Shown here one piece after another: positions 936-23,402 of a stretch of 32,873 bases of DNA. The DNA lies in contig CALWKZ010000013.1 in NCBI GenBank assembly GCA_944381385.1, positions 1 through 32,873 of the forward strand, read 5' to 3'. The stretch comes from an uncultured Anaerotignum sp. (GTDB lineage: Bacteria; Bacillota; Clostridia; Lachnospirales; Anaerotignaceae). Each line of letters opens with the position of its first letter. The first letter of the stretch is position 1. The position numbers were made by a program, and so were the translations under genes. The notes under the pieces were generated by a model, which saw only the letters and a program-made list of their open reading frames with translations, searched no databases and was not told the DNA's origin.

Positions 936-1083
936 ACACGCACCTCCCTAAAACATATTATAACATTTTTTTATAACAAGTGCCATAATTTGATATTACC
1001 ATTTTATAACAGTTTCCCTATATAATAAACTTAACCAATTGGTTCACAGAAAAAGCAGTAAAATACAGAAGGGATGTGTTACT
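936..1083. promoter_or_regulatory. Divergent promoter region of lysR and the DUF819 operon
   Basis: The region is very AT-rich. On the - strand an extended -10 (TG-T-TATAAT, complement of 957-962) lies 22 bases before the lysR start codon. On the + strand TATAAT at 1021-1026 lacks a recognisable -35, as expected for a promoter needing an activator. The word TTATAAC occurs three times (near 958, 971 and 1004), and 971-988 forms the dyad TTAT-N10-ATAA. These are candidate LysR contact sites between the two -10 elements; binding is inferred. Confidence 0.5.
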
Positions 1084-2283: not shown

Positions 2284-2366
2284 TCCGTCCCCTGCTCTGC
2301 GCTATCGTTTCCAAATGATTTCATCCGTATTCTTTTGCAGTACAAAATAGAAAAGAGGAGAGCAAT

Positions 2367-8548: not shown

Positions 8549-9496
8549 TTATTTCATGGAGTCTGTGGAGCCGATCACGTTTTTGATCTTGCCTTCCACC
8601 AAAGAGGTAATCAGGTCCCTGCCATCGCCCAGATAGCTTCTGGGGTCAATGCCGGAAGGATTTTCCGCCAGGGACTTCCGCACGGCCGCAGTCATGGCCA
8701 GACGCAGGTCTGTATCCATATTGATCTTGCAGACTGCCATGGATGCCGCCTTACGCAGCATTTCCGCGGGTATGCCCTTTGCGCCGTCGATCTTGCCGCC
8801 GTAAGCATTGCACATTTCCACACTCTTCTGATCTACCGAAGATGCGCCGTGAAGTACGATGGGATAATGATGGAATCCCGCTTCCTCCAGCTTTTTGGTG
8901 ATGGTCTCCAGCCGTTCAAAATCCAGCTTTGCCTCGCCTTTGAATTTATAGGCGCCGTGGCTGGTGCCAATGGCCACCGCCAGAGAATCTACACCGGTAC
9001 GTTTCACAAAATCTACAGCCTGGTCAGGGTCTGTAAATGTAGCGTTTTTGGCGTCTACCTTCACATCATCCTCTATCCCGGCCAGCTTGCCCAGCTCCGC
9101 TTCTACTACCACGCCTCTGGCATGGGCATAGTCTACGATTTCTTTTGTTTTCGCCACATTTTCCTCATAGTCATAATGGGAACCATCAAACATGATGGAA
9201 GTAAAACCGTAGTCGATACAGTCACGGCAAGTCTCGAAATCCGGGCCGTGATCCAGATGCAGGGCAATATCCAGCCCTGTTTCCGCTACTGCCGCCTCTA
9301 CCATAGCCCGCAGATATTTGGGATGGGCATAGTTTAAGGCCCCTTTGGAAACCTGTAGGATCACTGCGGAGTTCTGTCTTTTGGCAGCCTCCACAACACC
9401 CTGTACGATCTCCATATTGTTGATATTGAAAGCGCCGATGGCGTAACCGCCCTGAAACGCTTTTTCAAACATGTCCTTTGTTGTCACCAAAGCCAT
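8549..9496 (-). CDS. fba: Class II fructose-bisphosphate aldolase
   Basis: The 315-residue zinc enzyme cleaves fructose 1,6-bisphosphate to DHAP and glyceraldehyde 3-phosphate; many class II members also accept sedoheptulose 1,7-bisphosphate. D82 and H83 lie in ALHLDHG. Other family motifs are FDGSHYDYEEN, EAELGKLAGIEDD, GTSHGAYKF, LHGASSV and NMDTDLRLA. The start is ATG 9496 behind GAGAGGTG, dropping ten in-frame residues upstream. It is the last gene of the leftward carbohydrate cluster, 206 bp after the GntR gene, and is followed by a terminator. Clustering with phosphofructokinase and transketolase is unusual and suggests a pentose-related role in addition to, or instead of, bulk glycolysis. 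Confidence 0.96.
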   Translation of the reverse strand: MALVTTKDMFEKAFQGGYAIGAFNINNMEIVQGVVEAAKRQNSAVILQVSKGALNYAHPKYLRAMVEAAVAETGLDIALHLDHGPDFETCRDCIDYGFTSIMFDGSHYDYEENVAKTKEIVDYAHARGVVVEAELGKLAGIEDDVKVDAKNATFTDPDQAVDFVKRTGVDSLAVAIGTSHGAYKFKGEAKLDFERLETITKKLEEAGFHHYPIVLHGASSVDQKSVEMCNAYGGKIDGAKGIPAEMLRKAASMAVCKINMDTDLRLAMTAAVRKSLAENPSGIDPRSYLGDGRDLITSLVEGKIKNVIGSTDSMK

Positions 9497-9702: not shown

Positions 9703-10437
9703 TCAATGATCTTCGTAGGTCAATTTATCGTACAAATAACTGTTGTGGATCACTTCTTCGATCCGGTCGTAGTCACAGTCCCGGACCACTTCGTAAATGT
9801 CCTTATGCACCCGCAGCAGATCCTCCTTGAACTGGTTTTCCAGCACATGGGTCACTGTGCGCAGGCGCAGGCTGTACGTCAGGGTACGCACCACAGAGTT
9901 GATTTTAAACATCAGGGAGTTGTGGATCATTTCGGAGATGGTATCATGAAAATCGTTGTCTGCCTGGAATACCTTCAGGATATCCTGCGGTTCCGCCTGG
10001 ATCTCGGATTCCAGCACACAGTATTTTTCATAGAGTTTTTCCACATCCTCCTGGGTCCGTTTTTTCAGAGCGGAACGGATAATGCTCTGCTCCATAAATT
10101 CACGGAATTCCTTCAGCTCTGTATATGAATCGTCCTCGTTCAATATGATGCCATAGATCATAGGGTCGATCATGGAGTCCGTAAAGCCGCTTCTGACGAA
10201 GGTGCCGTCTGCCCTCCTAATCTCCAAAACGCCTAAATATACCAATATCTTAATGGCCTCCCGAATGGAGTTGCGTCCTACGCCGAAGGTTTCGGACATT
10301 TCCAGCTCCGTCGGGATCTTATCCCCCGGCTTCAGCGCGCCGGTCAGCATTGCTTCCGTCAGCCGGTCAATGACCTGCTGTACCACCGATTCTTTCTGGA
10401 TCGGTTTCAAACCGATTTCTTTTGACTTTGTTGCCAT
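9703..10437 (-). CDS. GntR-family regulator, FadR/FCD subfamily
   Basis: The 244-residue protein has an N-terminal winged HTH (residues about 12-78, including GDKIPTELEMSETFGVGRNS and SIREAI) and an all-helical FCD ligand domain (about 95-235). Probable metal or ligand residues of FCD proteins are visible in DNDFHD, RVHKDIYE and EVIHNSYLYD. FCD regulators typically bind sugar acids, keto acids or related carboxylates. It sits between pfkA and fba within the TRAP/transketolase cluster and has its own promoter, so it is the best candidate regulator of the cluster. The inverted repeat at the dctP promoter may be its operator. Repressor action is the family default, not shown here. Confidence 0.93.
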   Translation of the reverse strand: MATKSKEIGLKPIQKESVVQQVIDRLTEAMLTGALKPGDKIPTELEMSETFGVGRNSIREAIKILVYLGVLEIRRADGTFVRSGFTDSMIDPMIYGIILNEDDSYTELKEFREFMEQSIIRSALKKRTQEDVEKLYEKYCVLESEIQAEPQDILKVFQADNDFHDTISEMIHNSLMFKINSVVRTLTYSLRLRTVTHVLENQFKEDLLRVHKDIYEVVRDCDYDRIEEVIHNSYLYDKLTYEDH

Positions 10438-10580: not shown

Positions 10581-11546
10581 TCACTTGGATATGTTCCGGC
10601 AGATCTCCAGAAGATCAAAATCAATATCTTTTTTCATGGCAAGGGCTTCCTTGATATCAAAATCCACCACCTGATCCCGCTGGATGGCCACTACTCTGTT
10701 GGCAATGCCTTTTCGCAGCAGCTCCACGGCGTAATTCCCCATTTTCGCCGCGTAGACACGGTCCAGCATGGTCGGCGTGCCGCCTCTCTGGATATGGCCC
10801 AATATGGTGATGCGGGAATCTACGCCAGTCCGTTCCATAATGGTTTCCGCCATCTGCTGCAAGTTAATTTTACAGCCCTCCGAGACCACAATGATATGGT
10901 GGGTCTTGCCTTGTTCCTTCCGTTCCAAAATATTCCGGCAGACATCCTCTTCCACATCAAAAGCCGCTTCCGGTACCAGCACATCGGCCGCCCCCACGGC
11001 CAGACCTACATCCAGTGCCAGAAAGCCCGCATTTCTGCCCATGACCTCGATGATACTGCATTTTTCGTGGCTGCGGGCCGTATCCCGCAGGCGGTCGATG
11101 GCTTCTACCGCCACATTGCAGGCCGTATCGAAGCCGATGGTATAATCCGTACATTTGATATCATTGTCAATGGTGCCGGGAATCCCAACGGTAGGCAGTC
11201 CCGCGGCACAAAGTTTCTCTGCCGCGGCGAAGGAACCATCCCCACCGATGACCACCAGGCCCTCCAGCCCCAGCTCTTTTGCCTTTTCCACCGCCATTTC
11301 TATGCCCTCTTGAGAGAACATTTCCTGGCATCTGGCCGTATACAGCACCGTGCCCCCTTCTTTGACGATGCAGGAGACCGCGTTGCTGTCCAGAGGGACG
11401 GTATCTTCATGAAGCAGTCCCTGATAGCCCCGGTGGATGCCGATGACCTCCATGCCGTCGTGGCAGGCTGTGCGTACAGCGGAACGGATGGCCGCGTTCA
11501 TTCCCGGCGCGTCTCCGCCGCTGGTCAAAATTCCAATGGTTTTCAT
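10581..11546 (-). CDS. pfkA: ATP-dependent 6-phosphofructokinase
   Basis: The 321-residue product is a full-length PfkA, converting fructose 6-phosphate and ATP to fructose 1,6-bisphosphate. Numbering coincides with E. coli PfkA: TSGGDAPGMNAAIRS (8-22), GGDGS (101-105) and PGTIDND (123-129). Later motifs are EVMGRNAG, VPEAAFD and GHIQRGG. Glycine at position 104 marks the ATP-using type; PPi enzymes carry aspartate there. The start is ATG 11546 behind GGAGGG. It stands without the pyruvate kinase gene usual in Firmicutes, downstream of a split transketolase and an SDR gene. Phosphorylation of sedoheptulose 7-phosphate is a reasonable additional activity, known for some PFKs, but cannot be read from the sequence. 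Confidence 0.96.
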   Translation of the reverse strand: MKTIGILTSGGDAPGMNAAIRSAVRTACHDGMEVIGIHRGYQGLLHEDTVPLDSNAVSCIVKEGGTVLYTARCQEMFSQEGIEMAVEKAKELGLEGLVVIGGDGSFAAAEKLCAAGLPTVGIPGTIDNDIKCTDYTIGFDTACNVAVEAIDRLRDTARSHEKCSIIEVMGRNAGFLALDVGLAVGAADVLVPEAAFDVEEDVCRNILERKEQGKTHHIIVVSEGCKINLQQMAETIMERTGVDSRITILGHIQRGGTPTMLDRVYAAKMGNYAVELLRKGIANRVVAIQRDQVVDFDIKEALAMKKDIDFDLLEICRNISK

Positions 11547-11618: not shown

Positions 11619-12377
11619 TTAGTCCATATGAGAACCGCCGTTGATGTCGATTTCTTCCCCTGTGATGTAGCTTGCTTCTTTGGATGCCAGGAATACGATG
11701 GCATTGGCCACTTCCTGCGTTTCGCCGGGGCGGCCCATAGGGATGCCGTCGATGACTTTATCCGCGTCTGCCTTAGGCAGGGATTTCCAGATCTCTGTGT
11801 TGATCAGGCCGGGGCATACACAGTTGATGGTTACGCCGTCAGCGGAAATTTCTCTGGCCAGGTTTTTGGAGAAGCCCAGCACTGCCGCTTTGGATGCGGA
11901 GTAATGTGCGCCGCCGAATACACCGCCGCCTCTTTTGCCGGATACGGAGGACAGATTGACGATTCTGCCGTATTTTGCGGCTCTCATCGGTTTCATGCAG
12001 GCCTGTGTGCACAGGAACAGACCAAACATATTGACTTCAAAAATGCGTCTCATGTCTTCCAGTGTCATATCCTCCACAGTTACCTTCTGGGAAATGCCGG
12101 CATTGTTAATCAGCACGTCGATGCGGCCGAATTTGTCCATAATGGTCTTTACCATATTGTCTACGGATGCCTTGTCTGTTACATTCAGCTCGATGCCAAA
12201 AGCCTTTCCTCCTTCCGCTTCGATCTCTTTTACAGTATTGGCAATGCCTTCGGTGTTCATGTCCGCAATTACAACGGTACCGCCCTGTGCCGCAAAGGTT
12301 TTGGCGATGGTTTTGCCGATGCCCTTGGGAGAACCGCTGCCTGTAACGATGATGACCTGTCCATTAAAATCCAACAT
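11619..12377 (-). CDS. Short-chain dehydrogenase/reductase (SDR), substrate unknown
   Basis: The 252-residue classical SDR has the cofactor loop TGSGSPKGIG (12-21), D39 after the second strand (favouring NAD), NNAG (91-94), catalytic S143/S144 region, Y159 and K163 (YSASK), and the C-terminal ITGEEIDINGGSHMD. It resembles the gluconate 5-dehydrogenase, polyol dehydrogenase and FabG-like group. A strong AAAGGAGG precedes the ATG. It lies between tktC and pfkA in a TRAP/transketolase cluster, so oxidation or reduction of a sugar acid, polyol or related compound to a transketolase substrate is likely. A motif resembling the dctP operator lies just upstream. A fatty-acid role (FabG) is unlikely from context. 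Confidence 0.92.
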   Translation of the reverse strand: MLDFNGQVIIVTGSGSPKGIGKTIAKTFAAQGGTVVIADMNTEGIANTVKEIEAEGGKAFGIELNVTDKASVDNMVKTIMDKFGRIDVLINNAGISQKVTVEDMTLEDMRRIFEVNMFGLFLCTQACMKPMRAAKYGRIVNLSSVSGKRGGGVFGGAHYSASKAAVLGFSKNLAREISADGVTINCVCPGLINTEIWKSLPKADADKVIDGIPMGRPGETQEVANAIVFLASKEASYITGEEIDINGGSHMD

Positions 12378-12415
12378 AATATTTTCCTCCTTTAGAATCG
12401 TCTAATATCTTCTTA

Positions 12416-12429
12416 TATATAGTATGTAC
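12416..12429. promoter_or_regulatory. Candidate operator motif before the SDR gene
   Basis: On the - strand the 12-base core TACATACTATAT here matches TACGTACTATGT (17206-17217) in the dctP operator region, apart from two A/G differences. It lies in the 77-bp gap between tktC and the SDR gene, where a secondary promoter or repressor site would be expected. No convincing -35/-10 pair accompanies it. Confidence 0.4.
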
Positions 12430-12454
12430 TTTGTTAAACATATGATGTTGGAGC

Positions 12455-13393
12455 TTATAAAGAATGTAGTTCCTTTGCTGTTGCCACAATATTTTCTACA
12501 GTGATACCATTGATGGCCAGCAGTCTTTCATAAGGCGCAGACTGACCGAACTGGTCCTGGATACCGATACGTTTTACAATACCTTTGCCCTTTTCCGCCG
12601 CTACTTCACAGACTGCGCTGCCCAGGCCATTGAGGATATTGTGGTCCTCTACGGTGATGATCTTGCCGATCTGATCCACACAGTAGTTTACTTCTTCCAC
12701 ATCCAGCGGTTTGATGGTATGCATATCCACTACTCTTACCTGGATACCTTCCTTTGCCAGTTCTTCCGCCGCTTTCAGCGCCAGAACCACTGTATCGCCG
12801 TTGGCAATGATGGCAACATCCTTGCCTTCCTTCAGCAGATTTGCCTTGCCAATCACAAATTCCGCGGATTCGTCATAAATCACAGGGATCGCGTCTCTGG
12901 TAAAACGCAGGTAGCAGGGGCCGTACATTTCTGCCGCTGCCGCTGTCAATTTCTTAGCCGCTACATAGTCCGCAGGCATTACCACCGTCATATTGGGGAT
13001 GGTACGCAGAACGCCCATGTCCTCAATGCTCTGATGGCTGGCGCCGTCGTTGGCCGGTGTTACGCCGCCGTGGGAGCAGGCGATCTTTACATTCAGGTTG
13101 GGATAACAGATTTCCTGACGGATCATCTCACACATTCTCAGGGAACCGAATACGGCGTATGTTACTACAAAGGGAATCTTGCCGCAGGTTGCCATGCCGG
13201 CAGCCACACCGGCGCCGTTCTGCTCCGCAATGCCTACGTTGATATGCTGCTTAGGCAGCTGTTTTACAAATTCCCCTGTTTTGCAGGATTTACCGATATC
13301 AATATCAATGACACAAATGTCTTTATTCTGTTTGCCCAGTGCTACGATCTCTTCGCCAAAGCCCTCTCTGGTCGCTTTCTTTACTTCACTCAT
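12455..13393 (-). CDS. Transketolase, C-terminal half (Pyr and C-terminal domains)
   Basis: The 312-residue product corresponds to the second half of transketolase. The catalytic glutamate that activates thiamine diphosphate is E57 (NVGIAEQNG). It is followed by the aromatic cofactor pocket (TYAVFGS), the HGGVTPANDGASHQ stretch and the C-terminal domain (VVDMHTIKPLD, VEDHNILNGLGSAV). It must pair with the upstream half to be active, transferring a two-carbon ketol unit between sugars. The start is ATG 13393 behind AAGGAG, rather than an earlier in-frame start that overlaps the upstream gene. Split transketolases occur in central pentose metabolism and in special pathways (for example apulose 4-phosphate or sulfosugar breakdown), so the natural substrate is open. 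Confidence 0.94.
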   Translation of the reverse strand: MSEVKKATREGFGEEIVALGKQNKDICVIDIDIGKSCKTGEFVKQLPKQHINVGIAEQNGAGVAAGMATCGKIPFVVTYAVFGSLRMCEMIRQEICYPNLNVKIACSHGGVTPANDGASHQSIEDMGVLRTIPNMTVVMPADYVAAKKLTAAAAEMYGPCYLRFTRDAIPVIYDESAEFVIGKANLLKEGKDVAIIANGDTVVLALKAAEELAKEGIQVRVVDMHTIKPLDVEEVNYCVDQIGKIITVEDHNILNGLGSAVCEVAAEKGKGIVKRIGIQDQFGQSAPYERLLAINGITVENIVATAKELHSL

Positions 13394-13431
13394 TCTCCAT
13401 TCTCCTTTCCAGATTCCATCTGTTACGGGTA

Positions 13432-14265
13432 TCAAACCAGCTGCGCGTCCAATTCCTTCATTGCCTGCGCGTATTCCTCGTCATTAGGTGCAACGCCGTG
13501 CCATCCGCAGACATTTTCCATGTAAGAAACGCCTTTACCTTTTACGGTGTGGCCGAAAATGCATTTAGGCTTGCCGTTTTTGGAAGCTCTGATCTTATCC
13601 AGCGTATCTACGATCTGCTGCATATCGTTACCGTCGATCTCGTAGCTTTCAAAGCCGAAGGCCTCGAATTTTCTGCCAAGATGGATATTGGGCATGACCT
13701 CATCGCAAGTACCGTCCAGCTGCAAGTTATTATCATCCACAAATACGATCAGGTTATCCAGCTGGTACTTATTGGCTGTCTGCGCCGCTTCCCAGATCTC
13801 GCCTTCCTGGGCTTCGCCGTCGCCTACCACAACGAAAGCGCGGTAGTCCTTGCCGTCCATTTTCGCACACAGCGCCATACCTACGGCACAAGCCAGGCCT
13901 TGGCCCAGGGAGCCAGTGGAAATATCAATGCCAGGGCATTTTTTCATATCCGGATGGCCCTGGAGGATGGAGCCTTCTTTTCTGAGGGTATGGAGTTCCG
14001 CCTCGGGGAAGTAACCCAGTGTTCCCAGCGCCGCGTACTGGATAGGGCACACATGGCCTTTGGAAAGTACGAAACGGTCTCTGTCCTCCCATTTCGGGTT
14101 CTTGGGATCAATATTCATTTCTCTGAAATAGCAGGCCGCTACAAAATCCGCCGCGGAAAGAGAGCCGCCGGGATGTCCGGACTGCGCCTCATAGATCATA
14201 GTGACCGCTTTTTTGCGCAGGTCTGTGGCAATGTTTTTCAACTCGTGTACATTTACATTTTTCAT
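13432..14265 (-). CDS. Transketolase, N-terminal half (ThDP-binding domain)
   Basis: The 277-residue product carries the pyrophosphate domain of transketolase. It has SGHPGGSLSAAD (29-40), SKGH (68-71), GSLGQGLACAVGMA (118-131) and the thiamine diphosphate/Mg motif from GDG (148-150) to NN (179-180), then a conserved HTVKGKG. AGGGGTGG precedes the ATG. It lies 38 bp upstream of the C-terminal half and 51 bp downstream of the TRAP permease gene, all in one direction. No transaldolase, pentose-phosphate isomerase or sugar kinase accompanies it within the window. The pair therefore either supplements a chromosomal transketolase or serves the compound taken up by the TRAP transporter. Confidence 0.95.
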   Translation of the reverse strand: MKNVNVHELKNIATDLRKKAVTMIYEAQSGHPGGSLSAADFVAACYFREMNIDPKNPKWEDRDRFVLSKGHVCPIQYAALGTLGYFPEAELHTLRKEGSILQGHPDMKKCPGIDISTGSLGQGLACAVGMALCAKMDGKDYRAFVVVGDGEAQEGEIWEAAQTANKYQLDNLIVFVDDNNLQLDGTCDEVMPNIHLGRKFEAFGFESYEIDGNDMQQIVDTLDKIRASKNGKPKCIFGHTVKGKGVSYMENVCGWHGVAPNDEEYAQAMKELDAQLV

Positions 14266-14316
14266 AATGTTCCACCCCTTATGTGATTTATATGATTGGA
14301 TATGGTTTAGCTTTTT

Positions 14317-15600
14317 TTATACAAACAACAGTGAGATCTGCGGTATGTAGGTAACCAGCAGCAATACGATCAGCGAAGCGATAATCAGCGGCATGACTGC
14401 CACGGAGATCTGCTTCAGATTGCACTTGGCTATGCCGCAGGCTACATACAGGTTGACGCCTACAGGCGGTGTTACCAGGCCAATTGCTAGGTTTACGATC
14501 ATAACTACGCCCAGATGTACCAGGTCGATACCCAGAGCCTTTGCCACCGGCACAAACAGCGGAACGAAGATGTACAGCGCTGATGTGGAATCCAGGAAGC
14601 AGCCGGCCAGCAGCAGAATGATATTGACGATTAGGAAGAAGATGATGGTATTTCCTCCTGTTACGCTAATAAGCGCCTCATTGATAGCAACGTCGATACG
14701 GGAACGGGTCAGGATATAAGCAAAGATGCTGGCCGCTGCCGTAATCAGCATAACTGTTGCCGTTGTGGATGCGGAATCCACCAGAATCTTATAGATTTCT
14801 TTCAGTTTGATGGTGCGGTAGATAAACGCGCCTACGATCAGGCCATATACTGCGGATACTGCCGCAGCCTCTGTAGGTGTGAAAACACCGCCGTAGATGC
14901 CGCCCAGAATGATGACAGGCATCATCAGGCCCCAGAAGGCATCCTTAAAGGCTGCCCACCGTTCTGCGCCGCTGGCTTTAGGCAGGATTTCCAGATTGGA
15001 TTTTCTGCCTACCCACAGGGATACCAGAACCAGCGCCAGGCCCATCAGCAGCCCTGGCAGAACGCCGGCGATAAACAATGTGCCGATGGAGGTATCAGAA
15101 ATGGAGCCATATACGACGAAGGTAATGGACGGGGGAATGATAACCCCGATGGCGCCTGCCGCGCCCATGAGCGCCGCGGAGAAGGCGGGAGAGTATCCAA
15201 CCTTAATCATGGCGGGAATCAGGATCAACCCCAGTGCTGCTACCGTTGCGGGACCGGAACCGGAGATAGCCGCGAAGAAGCAGGCTACGATAACACATAC
15301 CATGGCAACGCCGCCCCGCAGATGGCCTACACAAGCCTGGGCCAATGTGATGAGCTTTTGGGAAATCCCCGCTTTTTCCATGATATTGCCGCCCAGGATA
15401 AAGAAGGGGATGGCCAAAAGCACGAATTTACTGGTGGATGCGGATACCAGCTGGGGCAAGGTACCCAGCACCACTTCAATGGGTCTGCCGGCGCCCTGCA
15501 CGATCATGGCGATCATACTGGAGATACCCAGGCAGATCGCGATAGGTGTGCCGATGAGCAGTAACACGGCAAAGGTAATAAACAAACAAGCTGCTACCAT
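14317..15600 (-). CDS. dctM: TRAP transporter large permease (DctM)
   Basis: The 427-residue inner-membrane protein has about 12 hydrophobic segments and the family pattern. Examples are FVLLAIPFFILGGNIMEKAG, GSGPATVAALGLI, IIPPSITFVVYG, FTPTEAAAVSAVYG and the C-terminal LVTPPVGVNLYVA. It is the ion-coupled membrane subunit of a tripartite ATP-independent periplasmic transporter; in Gram-positive bacteria the binding protein is a lipoprotein. It follows dctQ by 3 bp. TRAP systems move carboxylates, sugar acids and sulfonates, usually with sodium. Confidence 0.95.
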   Translation of the reverse strand: MVAACLFITFAVLLLIGTPIAICLGISSMIAMIVQGAGRPIEVVLGTLPQLVSASTSKFVLLAIPFFILGGNIMEKAGISQKLITLAQACVGHLRGGVAMVCVIVACFFAAISGSGPATVAALGLILIPAMIKVGYSPAFSAALMGAAGAIGVIIPPSITFVVYGSISDTSIGTLFIAGVLPGLLMGLALVLVSLWVGRKSNLEILPKASGAERWAAFKDAFWGLMMPVIILGGIYGGVFTPTEAAAVSAVYGLIVGAFIYRTIKLKEIYKILVDSASTTATVMLITAAASIFAYILTRSRIDVAINEALISVTGGNTIIFFLIVNIILLLAGCFLDSTSALYIFVPLFVPVAKALGIDLVHLGVVMIVNLAIGLVTPPVGVNLYVACGIAKCNLKQISVAVMPLIIASLIVLLLVTYIPQISLLFV

Positions 15601-15603
15601 ACG

Positions 15604-16095
15604 TTATACGACCTCCTCTTTCGTTTCTTTTTCCGTCGGGGATTTGATCTCACGGATCAGCACCTGCAGGAAGCGGATGGTCAGGAAGAAAGCTCCGATA
15701 GGTACAAAGGAGCCAAAAATCCATTCCGGCCACTGCATTCCGGCAGTGATCTGACCGCGGGCAAACTGCCGCATGGTCATGAAGATACCATAGTAGAAAA
15801 TCGAACCGCTGAATACTACCGCCAGAATCAGGCCAATGCTTTTCAGTATCTTCTCTGCCTTCGGGCTGACCACATCCAGGATGATGGTCAAACCCAAGTG
15901 AGCGCCTCTTTTTGCCGCGATGGCGGCGCCCAGCAGGCTCAGCAGCACGAACAGATACGTTGTGGCCTCATCCGTAAAAGAGAGGGACGCGCCCAGCACA
16001 TACCGCCCGATTACATTGACAAAGGCGATCACGACCATAATGGACAAACATATAGCAGATAATATTTCCTCAATGTTCTGCAAAAACTTTTTCAT
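15604..16095 (-). CDS. dctQ: TRAP transporter small permease (DctQ)
   Basis: The 163-residue protein has the four membrane segments of DctQ subunits (about residues 12-32, 45-65, 85-108 and 125-148). It includes the typical stretch INVIGRYVLG-like FVNVIGRYVLGASLSFTDE and RRGAHLGL-like KRGAHLGLTIILD. The charged C-terminus is cytoplasmic. It lies 21 bp after dctP and 3 bp before dctM, forming the standard P-Q-M operon order, and it should form a complex with DctM. Confidence 0.94.
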   Translation of the reverse strand: MKKFLQNIEEILSAICLSIMVVIAFVNVIGRYVLGASLSFTDEATTYLFVLLSLLGAAIAAKRGAHLGLTIILDVVSPKAEKILKSIGLILAVVFSGSIFYYGIFMTMRQFARGQITAGMQWPEWIFGSFVPIGAFFLTIRFLQVLIREIKSPTEKETKEEVV

Positions 16096-16116
16096 AATGT
16101 TGATACGCTCCTTTCT

Positions 16117-17148
16117 TTAGGATGGGATACGGAACGCCTCACATGCTTCCTGACCGTATTTTTCCATCAGATAGCTCCGAAGCTCAGAAACCGTTTCCTT
16201 AAAGGGTACCAGCTGTTCCTCGGTCAGCCGGGTCACTTCGATCTTATGCTCTATAAATTTCTGGATGATCTTCTCTTCCTCTTCCTCTACGTAATCTCTG
16301 CCCCATTCGCAGGCTTCCAGCGCCTTCTCCTGCAGCAGTTCTCTCGTTTCCGGCTCCAGGTACTCGTTCCAGATGGTGCTGTTGGCAACGAACAGGTCGT
16401 TTTCATAAGTATAATTCCAAAGGGTCAGATAATCCTGCACTTCATAAATCTTGGAGGAATCTGTAATGCTGACGCCGTTTTCCTGCCCGTCGATGGTACC
16501 CTGCTGGATGGCTGTAAATACTTCGCTCCAGCTCATAGAGATGGGGTCGGCCCCGAAAGCGTCAAATACACCCATGTAAACCTCGCCGCCCGGTACACGA
16601 ATCTTCAGTCCTTTTACGTCCTCCGGTGTTTCCACGGCATGCTTGCTGTTGGTCAGCTGACGGAAGCCGTTGTGGAAAGAGCCCAGATATGTAATATCGT
16701 ATTTTTCCAGCAGCTTTGCGTAATAATCTCCGCCGCCGTTGTCAATGGCTTCTCTGGCTTCCTGATAGTTGTTATAGGACCAGGGGATCGTACCTACCAG
16801 GAGCCTTTCGTCCAGTACGGACATAACACTGCTGGCATATGCCGCCAGGTCTACAGAGCCGTCGGCGATCATCTCGATGCCCTTTGTGGCATTGCCGCCG
16901 GCCAGCTGGTCATTGGGGAAAACCACGATCTCAATATTTCCCTCCGATGCCTCATAGACCAGTTCGGCGAACTTCTCCGCCACCAGGGTGTCAATCTGAA
17001 TATCCGTACCATTGACCGCCATCGCCAGCTCTACCTTTTGGTACTTCCCGGTTCCCTCGGCTCCCTCTGATGACTGGTCGCCGCAGCTGCTGAGCATGCC
17101 CGCCGCCACCGCCGCCACTAAGAAAACCGATAAAATCTTTTTCTTCAT
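16117..17148 (-). CDS. dctP: TRAP transporter substrate-binding lipoprotein (DctP)
   Basis: The 343-residue protein starts with a lipoprotein signal (MKKKILSVFLVAAVAAGM, lipobox LSSC with cysteine 22). It continues as a DctP-type solute-binding protein: VFPNDQLAGG, the arginine-containing KGLKIRVPGG (the Arg usually clamps a substrate carboxylate), and FTAIQQGTIDGQENG. The conserved arginine suggests an acidic substrate such as a sugar acid, keto acid or sulfonate. It is the first gene of the leftward TRAP-transketolase operon and sits 81 bp downstream of a strong promoter with an operator-like inverted repeat. The specific ligand cannot be read from sequence. Confidence 0.94.
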   Translation of the reverse strand: MKKKILSVFLVAAVAAGMLSSCGDQSSEGAEGTGKYQKVELAMAVNGTDIQIDTLVAEKFAELVYEASEGNIEIVVFPNDQLAGGNATKGIEMIADGSVDLAAYASSVMSVLDERLLVGTIPWSYNNYQEAREAIDNGGGDYYAKLLEKYDITYLGSFHNGFRQLTNSKHAVETPEDVKGLKIRVPGGEVYMGVFDAFGADPISMSWSEVFTAIQQGTIDGQENGVSITDSSKIYEVQDYLTLWNYTYENDLFVANSTIWNEYLEPETRELLQEKALEACEWGRDYVEEEEEKIIQKFIEHKIEVTRLTEEQLVPFKETVSELRSYLMEKYGQEACEAFRIPS

Positions 17149-17190
17149 TGCCTCATCCCTCCCTGATTTCTTTCGTAAGAACCGCTAGTT

Positions 17191-17219
17191 CTACGGTGTA
17201 CGTTATACGTACTATGTAG
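17191..17219. promoter_or_regulatory. 29-bp inverted repeat, candidate GntR operator at the dctP promoter
   Basis: Arms 17191-17203 and 17207-17219 match at 10 of 13 positions around TAT. The central GTACGT-TAT-ACGTAC is perfect and the outer CTAC/GTAG pairs are also perfect. It begins only a few bases downstream of the predicted transcription start, a position suited to repression. FCD regulators commonly bind short dyads with GT/AC half-sites, so the GntR protein of the cluster is the likely ligand. Confidence 0.6.
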
Positions 17220-17228
17220 GATGTTTAA

Positions 17229-17257
17229 ATCATATATCTTTTTTCCCAAAAAGTCAA
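17229..17257 (-). promoter_or_regulatory. Promoter of the TRAP-transketolase operon
   Basis: On the - strand TTGACT (complement of 17252-17257), 17 bases, TATGAT (complement of 17229-17234). The leader is about 75 bases and contains the inverted repeat 17191-17219. The rest of the 480-bp gap (17258-17576) shows no convincing gene, only a short TTTTGTACAAAA palindrome near 17313. Confidence 0.75.
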
Positions 17258-17576
17258 TTTGAAAAAGCAAATTTCCTTCGCTTCTACGTTCCACACAATT
17301 TTGTTTGCGCTGTTTTGTACAAAAGTCACACCAACATCCTACATTGGGCTGTGAAAAGAAACAGCTTCCTCTCCTTCTCCTTATGAAAAATGCTCCTCGA
17401 TTCCGCCTCTTCGCATGTACACATAATACCGTATTTTTTCGCTCACCCAGCGGCCTGATTCCGGGACCGTTCTTCCCCATAGCGTTCTCCTCTTTTCGCC
17501 CTGAAAATCTTCTCCTTTATGCGCTTATTTTTCCTCTTCCACACCAAAACAAAAAATCCTTCCCGCGATACAAAAG

Positions 17577-17628: not shown

Positions 17629-18570
17629 TTATTCTGCTTTTGCATATTTTTCCATCAAATCATATACCTTCTGCAAGAATTTCTCACGATCCACGCCGGT
17701 TACCACAAAAGCGTTATGATCGTCAAACTGCTTGTCACTGTACAGGTCTGTTACTGTTTTCCCCAGCGTCAGAGGGCCTTTGGTCTCTACCCGCACACCG
17801 GCCTCCTCCGCCGTAAACAGCTCCGGATAAGCCGTATAAAGCACTGCCGCTGGGTCATGGAGGGCAACGCCCTTTTTCCCCCAGCTCAGGTATTTTTTCA
17901 GGCCGTTCTGCAGCACGTCACAGAACAGTTTTGCCTGCGGTGTTCCTAGCGCCGCGATCTGCTCCAGCTCTTCTTTTGTGGCATAAGCCTGCAAGGTAAC
18001 ATCCAGGCCACACATATGTACCGGCACACCACAGCAGAACATCATATCCGCCGCTTCCGGGTCCACATAAATATTGAATTCCGCCGCGGGCGTTACATTG
18101 CCGCCGATAGCAGCGCCGCCCATAATAACGATTTTTTTCAAAAGCTTCGGCAGCTCCTTGTATTTTGCCAGGGCTATGCCCACATTGGTCATGGGGCCAA
18201 CGGCAATCAGCACCAATTCTCCTTCGCATTCCTTGGCGATACGATAAATGGCGTCCCAGGCCTTTTCTTCCGGGATCACATCATCCGGCACAGGCATTTC
18301 CACACCGCCGAAGCCGTCAGCGCCATGGAACTCGGCAGCCGTTACCAATGGACGGAACATGGGCTTGTCCGCGCCACGGTAAATGGGAAAATCCGCTCCC
18401 ATGATCTTTCTTACTTTTTTCGCGTTATTGGTGGTCTTATCCACCCCAACATTCCCCGCTACCGTCGTTACGGCGCGGATATCCAGCTCCGGCATCTGAT
18501 ACGCCAGCAGCAGCGCCGCGGTATCGTCTACGCCGGGATCACAGTCAATAATTACAGGAATCCGTTTCAT
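17629..18570 (-). CDS. Nucleoside hydrolase, IunH/Rih family (second of a tandem pair)
   Basis: The 313-residue enzyme hydrolyses the N-glycosidic bond of ribonucleosides to base and ribose. The calcium-binding motif is DCDPGVDD (9-16). Further family residues are PMTNVGIAL, MGGAAIGGN, PAAEFNIYVDPEAAD and the active-site LHDPAAVL. Its ATG overlaps the stop of the preceding homologue by 4 bp (ATGA), so translation is coupled. It is the last gene of the nucleoside transport operon and is followed by a terminator. It differs from its neighbour at the fourth motif position before DD (V instead of H) and elsewhere, so the two probably divide purine and pyrimidine nucleosides; which does which is not apparent. 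Confidence 0.93.
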   Translation of the reverse strand: MKRIPVIIDCDPGVDDTAALLLAYQMPELDIRAVTTVAGNVGVDKTTNNAKKVRKIMGADFPIYRGADKPMFRPLVTAAEFHGADGFGGVEMPVPDDVIPEEKAWDAIYRIAKECEGELVLIAVGPMTNVGIALAKYKELPKLLKKIVIMGGAAIGGNVTPAAEFNIYVDPEAADMMFCCGVPVHMCGLDVTLQAYATKEELEQIAALGTPQAKLFCDVLQNGLKKYLSWGKKGVALHDPAAVLYTAYPELFTAEEAGVRVETKGPLTLGKTVTDLYSDKQFDDHNAFVVTGVDREKFLQKVYDLMEKYAKAE

Positions 18571-19508
18571 GCTTTTCCCTCCCCATAGGTTCCAATGGCT
18601 TCTACCAGCAGGTCTACAAAGGCCTGGCGGTCAATGCCCATCAATACTTTGGCGTTAGGGGCCTTGCCCAGCACGCCGTTGAAGTCCGCTACAGTCGCGC
18701 CTTTGCAGAAATCTCCGGCGGTCTCTACCTGTACATAAAGGTCCTGAGACTCCATAATTTCCGGCTTCAGAAGAGCGGCCACAGCAACGGCGTCATGAAC
18801 CGGCGCGCCTTCGTAGCCCAGGCTTCTATGGAACTGATAGAAAAATTCCAGCCATTCCGCTACGATTACCGCTACAGGATTGCCTAAAGCCCGAATCCGT
18901 TCAAAGTCCTCCGGGAAGATCATCGCCTTTTCCGTCACATCCAGTCCCGCCATAATAATGGGGATACCGGAAGAGAATACCACATCCGCCGCTTCTGGGT
19001 CCACCAGAATGTTGAATTCCGCCGCAGGCGTCCAGTTGCCGTACTGCACACCGCCGCCCATCAGAGAGATTCTGGCAATTTTACTCTTTAATTCCGGATA
19101 CGCCAGCAGCAAAGCCGCCACATTGGTCAGCGGCCCTGTAGGAATCAGGGTAACAGGCTCCTGACTTTCCTCCAGCAGCTTTGCCATCAAAGTAACCGCG
19201 TCCATTTCCAGCAGGGGATAAGCAGGCTCCGGCAGGGCCGGACCATCCAATCCAGATTCTCCATGTACTGTCGGCGCGATAATAGGCTCAGAAATCAACG
19301 GACGCAGACGGCCCATGGCCATAGGCGCATCCAAACCGATCAGGGTACAGATTCTTCTGGCGTTGTAGGTTGTCTTTTCTATGGTCTGATTTCCGCAGAC
19401 AGAGGTAACACCCAAAATATCCATTTTCTGGCTGCCTTTTGCCAGCACCCACGCAATGGCGTCGTCATGTCCCGGATCTCCGTCCAGAATAACAGGGATC
19501 TTTTTCAT
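18567..19508 (-). CDS. Nucleoside hydrolase, IunH/Rih family (first of a tandem pair)
   Basis: The 313-residue product has the same length as the next gene's product and is clearly homologous to it. Motifs are DGDPGHDDAIAW (9-20), PLTNVAALLLAYPEL, MGGGVQYGN, PAAEFNILVDPEAADVV and VHDAVAVAAL. Glycine 10 replaces the cysteine of the common DCDPGHDD form, while all metal aspartates are kept. The start follows GGTGGAAG. It lies 83 bp after the ABC permease gene, with a perfect hairpin in that gap. In the operon it would cleave imported nucleosides to ribose and base inside the cell. Confidence 0.93.
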   Translation of the reverse strand: MKKIPVILDGDPGHDDAIAWVLAKGSQKMDILGVTSVCGNQTIEKTTYNARRICTLIGLDAPMAMGRLRPLISEPIIAPTVHGESGLDGPALPEPAYPLLEMDAVTLMAKLLEESQEPVTLIPTGPLTNVAALLLAYPELKSKIARISLMGGGVQYGNWTPAAEFNILVDPEAADVVFSSGIPIIMAGLDVTEKAMIFPEDFERIRALGNPVAVIVAEWLEFFYQFHRSLGYEGAPVHDAVAVAALLKPEIMESQDLYVQVETAGDFCKGATVADFNGVLGKAPNAKVLMGIDRQAFVDLLVEAIGTYGEGKA

Positions 19509-19541
19509 CTTCTTCCACCGTCCTTTTCTTTATTTAGAAAA

Positions 19542-19569
19542 GTTGGTTCAGCTGTACAGCTGAACCAAC
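19542..19569 (-). terminator. Perfect hairpin between the permease and hydrolase genes
   Basis: GTTGGTTCAGCT (19542-19553) pairs perfectly with AGCTGAACCAAC (19558-19569) around GTAC. On the - strand a short T run (complement of 19537-19541) follows. It probably reduces, but does not stop, transcription from transporter into hydrolase genes, or protects the upstream 3' end. Confidence 0.6.
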
Positions 19570-19591
19570 CATATATTTTTTCTCTGCGATA

Positions 19592-20560
19592 TTAGGATTT
19601 TTCCGCTTCCTTCTTGCCTTTTTCCATAAACCGTGATTTCTTGACACGGCGCACCTGTGTGCTGGCATACAGCACCAGACCGATAATGGTTACCGCGTAA
19701 GGCACGGCCGCAACCAGGAAGGAGGAGAAGCCCTGCATGCCTTCCATTTTGTTGCCCAGAGCGCTGGCAAAACCGAACAGCAGGGACGCGAACATGGAAC
19801 CCAAAGGCTCGCCCTGTCCCATGGCCTGTGCCGCCAGAGCGATAAATCCACGGCCCGCTACGATACCTGTATTCCAGCTCTGGGAATAGTACATGGACAT
19901 GTACGCGCCGCCCAGACCGGAAAGAGCGCCGGAAATACCAAGGGCAATATACTGGATCTTCAATACGCTGACGCCGACACTGTCCGCCGCGTGGGAGTTC
20001 TCACCAACGGCACGGATCTGCAGACCCAAAGCCGTTTTATACAGCAGCACCCATACCAGGAATACCAGCAGGAATGCCACATATGTCAGTATGGAATGAC
20101 CAGAGAAGATAGGCCCGATTACTGGAATGCTTTCCAGAATTGGGATATTCAGCTTGGGAGTCAACATACTGGGTGTTGTCAGGCTGGCCGTATTCCCCTT
20201 CAGGCCCGTAAACAGGTACAGCAGGAAGATCGTACCGCCGGAGCCCACTAGGTTTATGGCGATACCGGCCAGGATGATATCTGTCTTCAGCTTCAAAGCG
20301 AAAATACCAATAATCAGTGCCAAAATAACGCCGACCACCATGGCGCCGATTACGCCTACCCACCAGTAACTGGTCCAGTAAGCAAACAGTACACCGAAAA
20401 GGGCGGAAATCATCATAATACCTTCCAAACCGATATTAGTAACGCCGGCCTTTTCCGCTACAACAGCCGCCAGAGCCGCAAACAGGATTGGCGAGGTGAT
20501 ACGAATAATGGAATAACCGAAACTGGTGGTAAACACCATGCTCAAAATCTGTTCTAACAT
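19592..20560 (-). CDS. Nucleoside ABC transporter permease 2
   Basis: The 322-residue membrane protein belongs to the BPD_transp_2 permease group of sugar and nucleoside ABC importers (NupQ/BmpD-like). It has about eight to nine hydrophobic segments and the family sequences EKAGVTNIGLEGIMMISAL near the N-terminus and VGVSVLKIQYIALGISGALSGLGGA-type helix (split here at residues about 190-215). Its ATG overlaps the preceding permease stop by one base (TAATG). It pairs with that permease to form the membrane channel. Confidence 0.93.
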   Translation of the reverse strand: MLEQILSMVFTTSFGYSIIRITSPILFAALAAVVAEKAGVTNIGLEGIMMISALFGVLFAYWTSYWWVGVIGAMVVGVILALIIGIFALKLKTDIILAGIAINLVGSGGTIFLLYLFTGLKGNTASLTTPSMLTPKLNIPILESIPVIGPIFSGHSILTYVAFLLVFLVWVLLYKTALGLQIRAVGENSHAADSVGVSVLKIQYIALGISGALSGLGGAYMSMYYSQSWNTGIVAGRGFIALAAQAMGQGEPLGSMFASLLFGFASALGNKMEGMQGFSSFLVAAVPYAVTIIGLVLYASTQVRRVKKSRFMEKGKKEAEKS

Positions 20561-21669
20561 TACGCATTACCTCCTTCCGCCGCAGGTTCCGTTTTTTTCG
20601 CCAGTTCTTCCTTGGCTTCTTTAACGACCATCTTCTGTCTGGTCTTCGCCATGAACTGTTCCGCAGCAAAGAACAGGAAGATTACGGCCTGGATGATGTC
20701 AATCATTTCCGCCGGAACACCTGCGTAAATGGACATCAGTTCACAGCCTCTGTTCAGATAGGAAATGAACAGCGCCGCGAAAGGAATGGCAATGGGATTA
20801 TTCTTCGCCAGGATCGCAACAGTGATACCTGTCCAGCCATACCCGGGGAGATCTTTCCACAAAAAGGCGTTATATCTGCCCAGAACCTCGATGGCGCCGC
20901 CCATACCACTGAGCACACCGCCGATGACCTGAGAAACTACGATGATGCCGCCTACCTTCATACCGGAATATTTGGAGAAGGACTCATTGATACCGATCAT
21001 ACGGATGGCATAGCCCCAACGAGTACGGAACATGAAGAAGGCTACCAGGACTGTCGCCGCAATGGCAACCAAGAAGCCCCATGTCAGCTCTGTGCCGGCA
21101 ATAAGTTTGCCTACACGTGCAGTTTCCAAATAAGGATACGTCTGTACAGAACCCTGGGAACGGTCCGCAAATACATTGCTGAGGAAATGCATAACCACAT
21201 ATAGGATTACATAGTTCAGCATCAGGGAGCAAACCATTTCACTGGCATTCAACTTTACCTTTGCCCAAGCGGGAATCAGCATCAGCGCACCACCCACAGC
21301 AGCACCCACAAGGATACATACCACAGGATGCAGACCTGCTGCCAAAGGTACGTAAATACCTACCAAGCCGGCAACAAAGCCGCCGGCCATGACCGTACCT
21401 TCCCCGGCCAGGTTGAACTGGTTGGCGGAGAACATAACACATACTGCCAAACCAGTAAATATAATCGGCGTCATACGTGCCAGGATCATGTAAATAGAAG
21501 AAATATTCAGCGCGCCATTATTGAACACGGGACGCACCAAAAGGCAATACAATGCGTTCAGAGGATCATCCGCACAGATCAGGATGAAAATGAACGCCAC
21601 TGCGATGGCAATGAAAATCGCGGCACAGCCACGCAGGATCTCAAATCTCATCATTCTTTTATTCCCCAT
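20560..21669 (-). CDS. Nucleoside ABC transporter permease 1
   Basis: The 369-residue permease (NupP/BmpC-like) has the BPD_transp_2 layout with about nine to ten hydrophobic segments. Typical stretches are MTPIIFTGLAVCVMFSANQF, NLAGEGTVMAGGF and GYGWTGITVAILAKNNPIAI. The charged C-terminal tail (KEAKEELAKKTEPAAEGG) is cytoplasmic. The start at 21669 overlaps the ATPase gene end by 11 bp, showing tight translational coupling. The subunit set of lipoprotein, double ATPase and two unequal permeases is the nucleoside-type member of the family rather than the ribose type, which has one permease. Confidence 0.94.
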   Translation of the reverse strand: MGNKRMMRFEILRGCAAIFIAIAVAFIFILICADDPLNALYCLLVRPVFNNGALNISSIYMILARMTPIIFTGLAVCVMFSANQFNLAGEGTVMAGGFVAGLVGIYVPLAAGLHPVVCILVGAAVGGALMLIPAWAKVKLNASEMVCSLMLNYVILYVVMHFLSNVFADRSQGSVQTYPYLETARVGKLIAGTELTWGFLVAIAATVLVAFFMFRTRWGYAIRMIGINESFSKYSGMKVGGIIVVSQVIGGVLSGMGGAIEVLGRYNAFLWKDLPGYGWTGITVAILAKNNPIAIPFAALFISYLNRGCELMSIYAGVPAEMIDIIQAVIFLFFAAEQFMAKTRQKMVVKEAKEELAKKTEPAAEGGNA

Positions 21670-23224
21670 GCTGCACCCTCCTTACTTCTTCCGGGCTCTG
21701 CTGCTTCAGACCCAGCATATATTCGCCCATTACGGTGTCTGTCAGATCTTTGGTATCCTCAAAGTAAGCCGCGATCTGACCGTTATACATAATAATCAAA
21801 CTATCAGATAATTCCATAACCTCATTCAGGTCAGCAGAAACAAGAAGCACTGCCGCGCCTTCTCTGCTCAGTTCCACCAGCTTTTTACGGATAAACTCCG
21901 TAGCGCCTACGTCAATACCACGGGTAGGCTGGTCGGCAATAATCAAAACAGGTTCCGCGGAAAACTCTCTGGCAACGACTACCTTCTGGATATTACCGCC
22001 GGAAAGCATACCTACCTTCTGTGTCCTGTTTTTGCAAAGCACCTTATATTCCTCGATGAGCTTATCGCTGTCCTCGTGGATTTTTTTCATATTGAACAAA
22101 GGCCCGTTATTGTATCGTTTCTGGGCGCAGCGGTCACTGATAAGGTTTTCCTCAATGCTGGCCGCTCCCGCCATACCGAATGTCATACGGTCCTCCGGGA
22201 TCAGGGAAACACCCAGATCACGGATTTTTCTCTGGGACTCACCCAGAATATTATGCCCATTGACTTTGGCCACGCCGCTGTCCGGCATATTCAGGTTAAA
22301 GAGCATATCCACCAGTTCTCTCTGTCCGTTGCCCTCAACCCCGGCAATGCCTAAAATCTCTCCCTTTCGTACGTCAAAGGACATATGGTTGATCATCTTC
22401 TTTTTCCATTCGTTGGTATATTCCAGATCCCGCACACGCAGCACCACATCTGTAGGCTGTGCCTGTTCCTTTTCCACCGTCAGAATAACGTCACGGCCTA
22501 CCATCAGACGGGAAATCTCCTCTTTGGAAATATCTGCCGTATTATATACACCCATAGATTTGCCGCCGCGCATGATGGTCAGGCGGTCTGTGATCTGTTT
22601 GATCTCATGGAGCTTATGGGAAATAAATACCATGGTGTAGCCCTGTTCCTTTAAATGGATCAGTTCTTTGAACAGCTCTTCTGTTTCCTGTGTCGTCAGT
22701 ACGGCCGTAGGCTCGTCCAGAATCAGGATTTTCGCCCCACGGACAAGAGCCTTCAGGATTTCTACTTTCTGCTTCATGCCGACGGGGATGTCTCTTACCT
22801 TCGCGTCCGGGTCCACCTGGAGGTTATACTTTTTGGCGTATTCCTCTGTGATCTCCACCGCTTTTTTGTAATCCATAAACAGGTTATTCTTTTTGGGCTC
22901 CATGCCCAGGACGATATTTTCCGCTACCGTCAGGTTCGGCACCAGCATAAAGTGCTGATGCACCATGCCGATTCCTTTGGAAATTGCCACTGTAGGAGAC
23001 GTCAGGGATACTTCCTCCCCATTTACTGTAATCGTTCCCTCCGTGGGCTGTTCCAAACCGAACAGCATCTTCATCAATGTGGATTTTCCGGCACCGTTTT
23101 CACCCATCAGCGCATGAATCTCGCCTTTTTTCACGTTAAAATCCACACCCTGATTGGCGGCAATGCCGTTTGGATAAACTTTTGTGATTCCTTTCATCTG
23201 CACAACATATTCATTGTCTGCCAT
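21659..23224 (-). CDS. Nucleoside ABC transporter ATPase, two fused nucleotide-binding domains
   Basis: The 521-residue protein contains two NBDs. The first has Walker A GENGAGKST (41-49), Q-loop region MVHQHFMLVPNLTV and Walker B ILILDEPTAVLT, with a degenerate signature (PVGMKQKVEILKAL). The second has a degenerate Walker A (GVEGNGQREL), an intact signature LSGGNIQKVVVARE and Walker B LIIADQPTRGID. This asymmetry is normal for the RbsA/NupO group. The start at ATG 23224 is chosen because GGAGGG precedes it and the protein then begins with the normal NBD strand; 23 extra upstream residues look non-native. It energises uptake through the two permeases. Confidence 0.95.
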   Translation of the reverse strand: MADNEYVVQMKGITKVYPNGIAANQGVDFNVKKGEIHALMGENGAGKSTLMKMLFGLEQPTEGTITVNGEEVSLTSPTVAISKGIGMVHQHFMLVPNLTVAENIVLGMEPKKNNLFMDYKKAVEITEEYAKKYNLQVDPDAKVRDIPVGMKQKVEILKALVRGAKILILDEPTAVLTTQETEELFKELIHLKEQGYTMVFISHKLHEIKQITDRLTIMRGGKSMGVYNTADISKEEISRLMVGRDVILTVEKEQAQPTDVVLRVRDLEYTNEWKKKMINHMSFDVRKGEILGIAGVEGNGQRELVDMLFNLNMPDSGVAKVNGHNILGESQRKIRDLGVSLIPEDRMTFGMAGAASIEENLISDRCAQKRYNNGPLFNMKKIHEDSDKLIEEYKVLCKNRTQKVGMLSGGNIQKVVVAREFSAEPVLIIADQPTRGIDVGATEFIRKKLVELSREGAAVLLVSADLNEVMELSDSLIIMYNGQIAAYFEDTKDLTDTVMGEYMLGLKQQSPEEVRRVQHGE

Positions 23225-23332
23225 GATCAGGTTCCCTCCTTCTTTTTCATTTGTTGTCTGCAACTTCAAAAAATTTTTTGTTCCCTCCATCATTGCTTTT
23301 GGAACATTTATCGAAAAATTTTTTCAATTCGC

Positions 23333-23370
23333 AGAAAAAAACATAAAAGGGGGCTGTATTCAGCCCCCTT
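23333..23370 (-). terminator. Intercistronic terminator-like hairpin after the BMP lipoprotein gene
   Basis: AAGGGGGCTG (23347-23356) pairs perfectly with CAGCCCCCTT (23361-23370), with a T-rich run on the - strand (complement of 23333-23346). It lies in the 178-bp gap before the ATPase gene. Partial termination here would give more binding protein than membrane subunits, a common design in ABC operons. No separate promoter for the ATPase gene was identified with confidence. Confidence 0.8.
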
Positions 23371-23402
23371 ATTTTATGCCGAAAAACCGTTCTCTATCAA
23401 AA

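Follow-up and report, generated by a model that had tools for sequence, protein, structure and literature searches.

A short-chain dehydrogenase and split transketolase gene set shared by Anaerotignum and other bacteria, possibly devoted to the catabolism of a sugar acid

Introduction

A transketolase donor must carry a terminal CH2OH-CO unit, and split transketolases, in which two separate proteins make up the enzyme, belong to several pathways that provide this unit in different ways. We consider here a gene cluster of an uncultured Anaerotignum sp., found in a contig of 32,873 bases that was analysed at its full length (henceforth the window) and comes from a draft genome of 1.9 Mb, 81% complete, where the genes of a tripartite ATP-independent periplasmic (TRAP) transporter, dctPQM, are followed by those of a split transketolase, tktN and tktC, and of a short-chain dehydrogenase/reductase (SDR). 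In the transketolase-type pathway of D-apiose, a split enzyme gives xylulose-5-phosphate from a phosphorylated donor, apulose-4-phosphate, which an isomerase and a kinase supply. In the L-idonate/5-keto-D-gluconate (idn) pathway of E. coli, 5-keto-gluconate is reduced to gluconate, which is then phosphorylated.

The nearest proven system is sulfo-TK, a route of sulfoquinovose degradation present in Clostridium sp. MSTE9 and in Faecalicatena, where a split transketolase, SqwGH, acting together with SqwI, removes two carbons from a ketose that is anionic and not phosphorylated, forming xylulose-5-phosphate (PMC9594981, PMC11659671). The ula2 operon of Streptococcus pneumoniae (ulaR2-ulaB2A2-tktN-tktC), which is induced by ascorbate, places a split transketolase beside an importer (PMC4324149), while in Gluconobacter, and by proposal in grapevine, transketolase cleaves 5-keto-D-gluconate with formation of tartaric semialdehyde (PMC11066805, PMC12016104).

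Taking these systems as a reference, we propose that the Anaerotignum cluster serves to catabolise a sugar acid, in all likelihood an aldonate, by a route of its own: the acid would be oxidized by the SDR and then give up a C2 unit to glyceraldehyde-3-phosphate (G3P) via the transketolase TktNC, a view whose chances we place slightly above even.

A conserved set of three genes

A sequence-only reading of this DNA had described a leftward series of TRAP, split transketolase and NAD-type SDR genes. Coordinates, strand and Pfam/NCBIfam families bear this out, with the genes forming a single series in which neighbours are about 3 to 77 bp apart:

16117..17148, minus strand: dctP, TRAP solute-binding lipoprotein (TIGR00787/PF03480 above cut-off; AlphaFold2 mean pLDDT 86.7)
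15604..16095, minus strand: dctQ, TRAP small permease (PF04290)
14317..15600, minus strand: dctM, TRAP large permease (TIGR00786/PF06808 above cut-off)
13432..14265, minus strand: tktN, thiamine diphosphate-binding half of a split transketolase (PF00456; top solved match 6yak, a split transketolase)
12455..13393, minus strand: tktC, pyrimidine-binding and C-terminal half of the split transketolase (PF02779 and PF02780; top solved match 6yaj)
11619..12377, minus strand: SDR, NAD-type short-chain dehydrogenase (PF13561/PF00106), conserved partner of tktNC

Past the SDR gene the series runs on, still on the minus strand, with three further genes:

10581..11546, minus strand: pfkA, ATP-dependent 6-phosphofructokinase (PFK), starting 72 bp downstream of the SDR gene (TIGR02482 375.6 bits, cut-off 371.35; motifs GGDGS, TIDNDI and HIQRGG)
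9703..10437, minus strand: GntR/FCD regulator (PF00392 and PF07729), with a promoter-like site of its own at 10540-10512
8549..9496, minus strand: class II fructose/sedoheptulose-bisphosphate aldolase (TIGR01859 347.7 bits, cut-off 343.05)

The order dctP-Q-M-tktN-tktC-SDR-PFK-GntR is identical in four genomes of the same family (G002, G028, G029, G032), one of which, Clostridium sp. ASF356 (G028), has in addition a gene for RpiB within the TRAP operon and one for Rpe beside that of the GntR regulator. Scanning named genomes with the SDR alignment gave 80 loci, among which we distinguished a close group of 39 SDRs with identities of 56% or more and a control group of 29 SDRs at most 41% identical (L092-L120). 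Both tktN and tktC lie within 6 kb of the SDR gene at 37 of the 39 close loci, the remaining two (L043, L061) being near contig ends, while tktN was found near none of the 29 control SDRs; the TRAP, transketolase and SDR genes thus belong together when neighbourhoods are compared. The SDR-tktNC association also occurs at seven loci at 39-45% identity, mostly in Alphaproteobacteria, and in two Spirochaetes, and scans of the class (391 genomes) and of the phylum (398 genomes) added seven matches, all with the transketolase pair, some of them in species already counted. The set is nevertheless uncommon: among 392 genomes of the order, 8 have an SDR of the close type. Its carriers comprise many anaerobes and soil bacteria and include cultured strains such as Clostridium sp. 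ASF356 (Altered Schaedler Flora), Priestia or Metabacillus species, Blautia schinkii and Faecalicatena contorta. DctP homologues at 34-46% identity (L023-L030) had no transketolase genes of the cluster type nearby in the stretches that were read, so that the link between DctP and the transketolase holds for the closer DctP proteins alone.

Only tktN, tktC and the SDR gene belong to nearly all loci. A full-text search of the literature, with the subscription literature covered in part, returned no description of the SDR-tktN-tktC set, in keeping with the earlier suggestion that it is undescribed, and we regard it as a genuine, conserved set, presumably catabolic and probably undescribed, made of ordinary parts in a new combination. 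Around this core, a gene for PFK, aldolase, RpiB or Rpe is found at 16 of the 39 loci and at none of the 29 controls (Fisher p = 3e-5, for loci that are related to one another), with PFKs of different types; taken by family, RpiB-type genes are near 11 cores, aldolase genes near six and Rpe genes near three. A GntR-type regulator is encoded within 8 kb of the core at 25 of the 39.

Two loci call for a remark of their own. In a genome with 11% contamination (G564), tandem tktN-tktC pairs with the same start sequences (L178 4536-6328 and 7912-9704) enclose an RpiR-like regulator gene and follow a xylulokinase-like FGGY kinase gene, possibly after a recent duplication. In a metagenome-assembled genome of Planctomycetaceae (L082 12796-16572), dctQ and dctM, 66% and 73% identical to those of the window, stand beside a 46% identical SDR gene in a stretch devoid of tkt genes, which may reflect horizontal transfer or a binning error.

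The transporter and the class of substrate

The arginines that would clamp a carboxylate in DctP, R163 (in GFRQ) and R184 (in KIRVP), are invariant in 21 homologues, as the sequence-only reading had led one to expect for one such residue; their counterparts in the isethionate-binding IseP are Arg156 and Arg177 (PMC11668362). In a profile search the best solved chains were 4p8b, 4p47 and 7bbr (204, 203 and 197 bits), the last coming from work on CxaP, which binds sugar acids (xylonate, fuconate, galactonate and gluconate); chains named as C4-dicarboxylate-binding DctP scored at most 165 bits, and the isethionate binder 159 bits. Relatives replace the TRAP system by a GntP permease (above the TIGR00791 gluconate-symporter cut-off), by a member of the ACS family of the major facilitator superfamily nearest to D-galactonate transporters, or by a distant DctPQM; DctPQM, GntP or an ACS-type permease is present at 36 of the 39 close loci as against none of the 29 controls. 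Clamp arginines and exchange with permeases for acids both argue for an acid as the very probable substrate, as had been suggested.

A medium-chain dehydrogenase (MDR) of the threonine/idonate dehydrogenase superfamily is encoded near six of the 39 cores, and single loci add a LarA homologue, a PdxA with a threonate kinase, a lactonase-like protein of the MBL fold or a xylulokinase-like FGGY kinase. Together with the exchange of transporters, these genes point to a polyhydroxy acid, none of them fixing its chain length.

At two loci (L042 2728-5058, L049 2798-5128), genes for a LarA-superfamily protein and a divergent triosephosphate-isomerase-like protein lie just upstream of dctP; the former hints at 2-hydroxy acids, yet it falls far below the cut-offs of all LarAH models. 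In Oceanobacillus jeddahense (L051 11839-14335) the SDR gene is followed by genes for a PdxA-type dehydrogenase and a D-threonate-kinase-like protein, which could process a C4 acid product or be unrelated neighbours.

The enzymes and their dedicated copies

The SDR has the catalytic tetrad N116-S144-Y159-K163 and, at position 39, an aspartate which we take to be that of NAD-preferring SDRs, in agreement with the cofactor type first assigned to it. None of the specific sugar-acid dehydrogenase models was reached, and the closest solved structures are generic FabG-type enzymes that give no hint on specificity. When aligned with the human and Carboxydothermus transketolases, TktNC keeps the TR, IAEQN, SH, DG and FTR positions, which belong to the catalytic and phosphate sites. 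In the phosphate site, TktC keeps an Arg, a His and a second Arg, corresponding to R358/H461/R520 of the E. coli enzyme (PMC12016104). With this site retained, a sugar phosphate such as G3P is to be expected as the acceptor, and xylulose-5-phosphate would then be the product.

It might have been that the split enzyme is the sole transketolase of its host. Family searches rule this out, as the genome encodes outside the cluster a full-length transketolase beside a transaldolase-family gene, a housekeeping RpiB, a second pfkA and a third PFK-family gene, while two genomes of the same genus lacking the cluster (G001 and G004) have two PFK genes instead of three and no split transketolase. With a separate full-length transketolase, a transaldolase and another PFK at hand, the cluster genes are dedicated copies. 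In a tree of TktN the Bacillota loci form a supported clade (37 rows, 100/99), which excludes full-length transketolases as well as the split ones encoded beside transaldolase genes; deeper placements, including that of the Alphaproteobacteria, depend on long branches.

A proposed pathway

From gene content, conservation, dedicated copies and retained residues, we infer the following succession of steps. DctPQM would take up the acid, and the SDR would use NAD+ to oxidize the penultimate carbinol of an aldonate, producing a terminal ketol acid (from a hexonate, a 5-keto-hexonate such as 5-keto-D-gluconate). TktNC would move the C2 ketol unit of this unphosphorylated keto acid to G3P, with formation of xylulose-5-phosphate and of an aldehyde acid two carbons shorter, 2,3-dihydroxy-4-oxobutanoate in the case of a hexonate. 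Xylulose-5-phosphate would enter the pentose phosphate route, where the additional PFK and aldolase would split fructose- or sedoheptulose-bisphosphate and restore the triose-phosphate acceptor, Rpe and RpiB being presumably of the housekeeping type in the window genome and borne by the cluster in some relatives. A sedoheptulose-bisphosphate variant, where PFK and aldolase replace transaldolase, would fit the extra pair of genes, yet a transaldolase-family gene is also present in the genome.

The sequence-only reading had arrived at a transketolase donor or acceptor formed by one oxidation or reduction, with the substrate left unphosphorylated, by arguing from missing parts: no kinase, and none of the extra isomerases of known split-transketolase pathways. 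That argument is not supported. An ATP-type pfkA lies just beyond the genes then considered, PFK and aldolase genes are the next structural genes of the series, and relatives repeatedly have RpiB, Rpe and PFK; the isomerases are indeed missing from the window. Lack of a kinase would not have been a distinguishing mark in any event, as sulfo-TK is also free of kinases up to the transketolase step. A donor produced by one oxidation is still the leading reading, and the PFK and aldolase of the cluster, with RpiB and Rpe in relatives, probably process the xylulose-5-phosphate product and do not phosphorylate the imported substrate.

The proposal resembles sulfo-TK, with a carboxylate taking the place of the sulfonate, in its split transketolase, in the RpiB-family isomerase of some loci and in its occurrence in anaerobic Firmicutes. 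In sulfo-TK, however, the ketol is formed by an aldose-ketose isomerase (sulfoquinovose to sulfofructose), for which the cluster has an SDR, and the cluster is endowed with carboxylate-type transporters, a PFK and an aldolase, with no conserved enzyme for a sulfonate end. Among the loci only RpiB and Rpe recur as isomerase families, none of the sulfo-TK sugar isomerase type, and a counterpart of SqwI is absent from the window cluster, the RpiB proteins of related loci resembling the canonical one. An SDR in the place of the sugar isomerase, together with the lack of a conserved sulfonate-end gene, indicates that the cluster is not a member of sulfo-TK.

The idn pathway shares with some Bacillota relatives its mixture of MDR, SDR and GntP-family permease, but it proceeds through gluconokinase, in place of which transketolase would stand here; the SDR is below the cut-off for identification as IdnO (gluconate 5-dehydrogenase), and the window cluster has no gluconokinase gene, its kinase being 6-phosphofructokinase. 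Cleavage of 5-keto-D-gluconate is the very reaction proposed for a hexonate, although the enzymes described for it are single-chain transketolases outside any known catabolic operon, with a phosphate site engineered for efficient conversion. The ula2 operon likewise has a split transketolase adjoining the importer of an acidic sugar derivative; it differs in importing through the phosphotransferase system and in lacking SDR, TRAP, PFK and aldolase genes. The apulose-4-phosphate pathway shares the split enzyme and its product, but not the unphosphorylated donor that we propose.

Promoter and neighbouring genes

Three sites can be recognised upstream of dctP:

17229..17257, minus strand: promoter-like site TTGACT-17-TATGAT, upstream of dctP (10/12 match)
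17214..17224, minus strand: operator-like ACATCCTACAT (11 bp), directly downstream of the -10 region, conserved in five genomes
17334..17344, plus strand: second copy of ACATCCTACAT, inverted and exact, about 110 bp upstream of the first

The single strong promoter that had been announced is thus qualified: its match is incomplete and the scan gave a total of promoter sites near chance, no more than in shuffled sequences, whereas TTGAC, the -10 region and the adjoining ACATCCTACAT are kept upstream of dctP in five genomes (with one base different in L022). An extended 18-bp form of the ACATCCTACAT site occurs only once in the window genome; the second copy is suggestive only, at least two matches to ACATCCTACAT being also found in 7 of 100 shuffles. 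The conserved core and ACATCCTACAT support a regulated promoter driving dctPQM-tkt-SDR, and the GntR/FCD protein is probably its regulator.

The neighbourhood is bounded on the left by spoVA genes and on the right by nucleoside genes, for two hydrolases and an ABC transporter of the BMP type. The latter form a separate leftward operon (window 17629-24524), with two adjacent IUNH genes, which adjoins the cluster elsewhere only in G002, of the same genus. Further away (window 99-3959) are genes for a DUF819 permease and for an amidohydrolase whose general appearance is that of a D-aminoacylase, together with the divergent gene of a LysR-like regulator (99-935); they look like a separate module for uptake and hydrolysis.

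Alternative readings

Just upstream, both in the window and in G002, are the nucleoside genes (two for IUNH and those of a BMP transporter), and transketolase, PFK and aldolase are all enzymes that act on pentose phosphates. One might thus see in the cluster a mere boost of the pentose phosphate pathway for the use of nucleosides or ribose. In other genera, however, the nucleoside genes are not beside the cluster, whereas the SDR and the acid-type transporter are conserved, and neither the SDR nor the TRAP importer would have a function in ribose use. We give this reading hardly any credit, and nucleoside salvage was rejected on the lack of conservation of the neighbouring genes. A sulfonate pathway, for a sulfo-sugar or a sulfo-polyol imported by the TRAP system in the manner of IsePQM, would share with sulfo-TK the split transketolase and the RpiB family, and DctP is moderately related to isethionate-binding DctP; it is very improbable nonetheless, given that no sugar isomerase, sulfonate-specific reductase or exporter is conserved, that only tktN, tktC and SDR are near-universal, and that the TRAP system gives way to GntP and ACS-type permeases.

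Two other readings retain the acid and modify its fate, and we hold both to be unlikely. The imported compound might already be a keto acid, of the 5-keto-gluconate, fructuronate or tagaturonate type, cleaved directly by TktNC, with the SDR acting as a reductase on the aldehyde or keto acid to dispose of NADH. The direction of the SDR reaction cannot be read from the sequence, its best scores go to FabG-type reductase models, no other reductase for the aldehyde product is conserved and anaerobic hosts need electron sinks; on the other hand, an MDR accompanies the SDR at 6 of the 39 loci, as expected if both oxidize epimeric alcohols to one keto acid. Cleavage might also occur twice, making the system a counterpart of sulfo-TK for carboxylates: the aldehyde acid of four carbons would isomerise to a 3-keto-tetronate, spontaneously or through an RpiB homologue acting like SqwI, and TktNC would cut again to leave a second xylulose-5-phosphate and glyoxylate. 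This would account for the missing C4 enzyme, SqwGH does cleave twice, SqwI is of the same Pfam family as RpiB, and RpiB-family genes lie near 11 of the 39 cores, within the TRAP operon in Clostridium sp. ASF356. The cluster RpiB, however, aligns over its full length with ribose-5-phosphate isomerases, including the C-terminal Arg and His positions, it co-occurs with Rpe, PFK and aldolase in a way that fits ordinary pentose phosphate work, and no glyoxylate enzyme was recognised nearby. In its widest form, which we also hold to be unlikely, this reading would make of the locus an aldonate-transketolase pathway as yet undescribed, common in Bacillota and extending to Spirochaetes and Alphaproteobacteria, with two C2 cleavages of a free keto-aldonate leaving glyoxylate.

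Several facts weigh against the single oxidation and cleavage of an aldonate that we favour. An enzyme for the aldehyde acid is not among the genes conserved in the loci, and PFK, aldolase, RpiB or Rpe genes accompany fewer than half of the cores. On the gluconate 5-dehydrogenase model (NF006070) the SDR reaches 187.5 bits, where the cut-off is 279, and its scores on FabG models are higher. DctP is related also to isethionate and pantoate binders. In G017 (L023 3931-7579), a 66% identical SDR and a 45-61% identical DctPQM have no tkt gene nearby, so that the SDR-TRAP pair can occur without transketolase, and the loci share kinship, their counts not being independent. The E. coli transketolase reported to be active on 5-keto-gluconate was mutated at exactly the three phosphate-site residues that TktC keeps (PMC12016104), which would weigh somewhat against 5-keto-gluconate itself, unless the natural enzyme has another solution.

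Significance

If the proposal holds, breakdown of unphosphorylated sugar acids by transketolase would extend the logic of sulfoglycolysis, as developed in sulfo-TK, to ordinary carboxylates, and sugar acids arise in gut and soil from the oxidation of uronates, ascorbate and glucose. It would also give a function to a recurrent SDR-tktN-tktC set which generic family models label only as FabG-like and transketolase. Were double cleavage to be true, it would constitute a third mode of sugar-acid breakdown, besides the dehydratase/aldolase (Entner-Doudoroff-like) and the kinase/decarboxylase routes.

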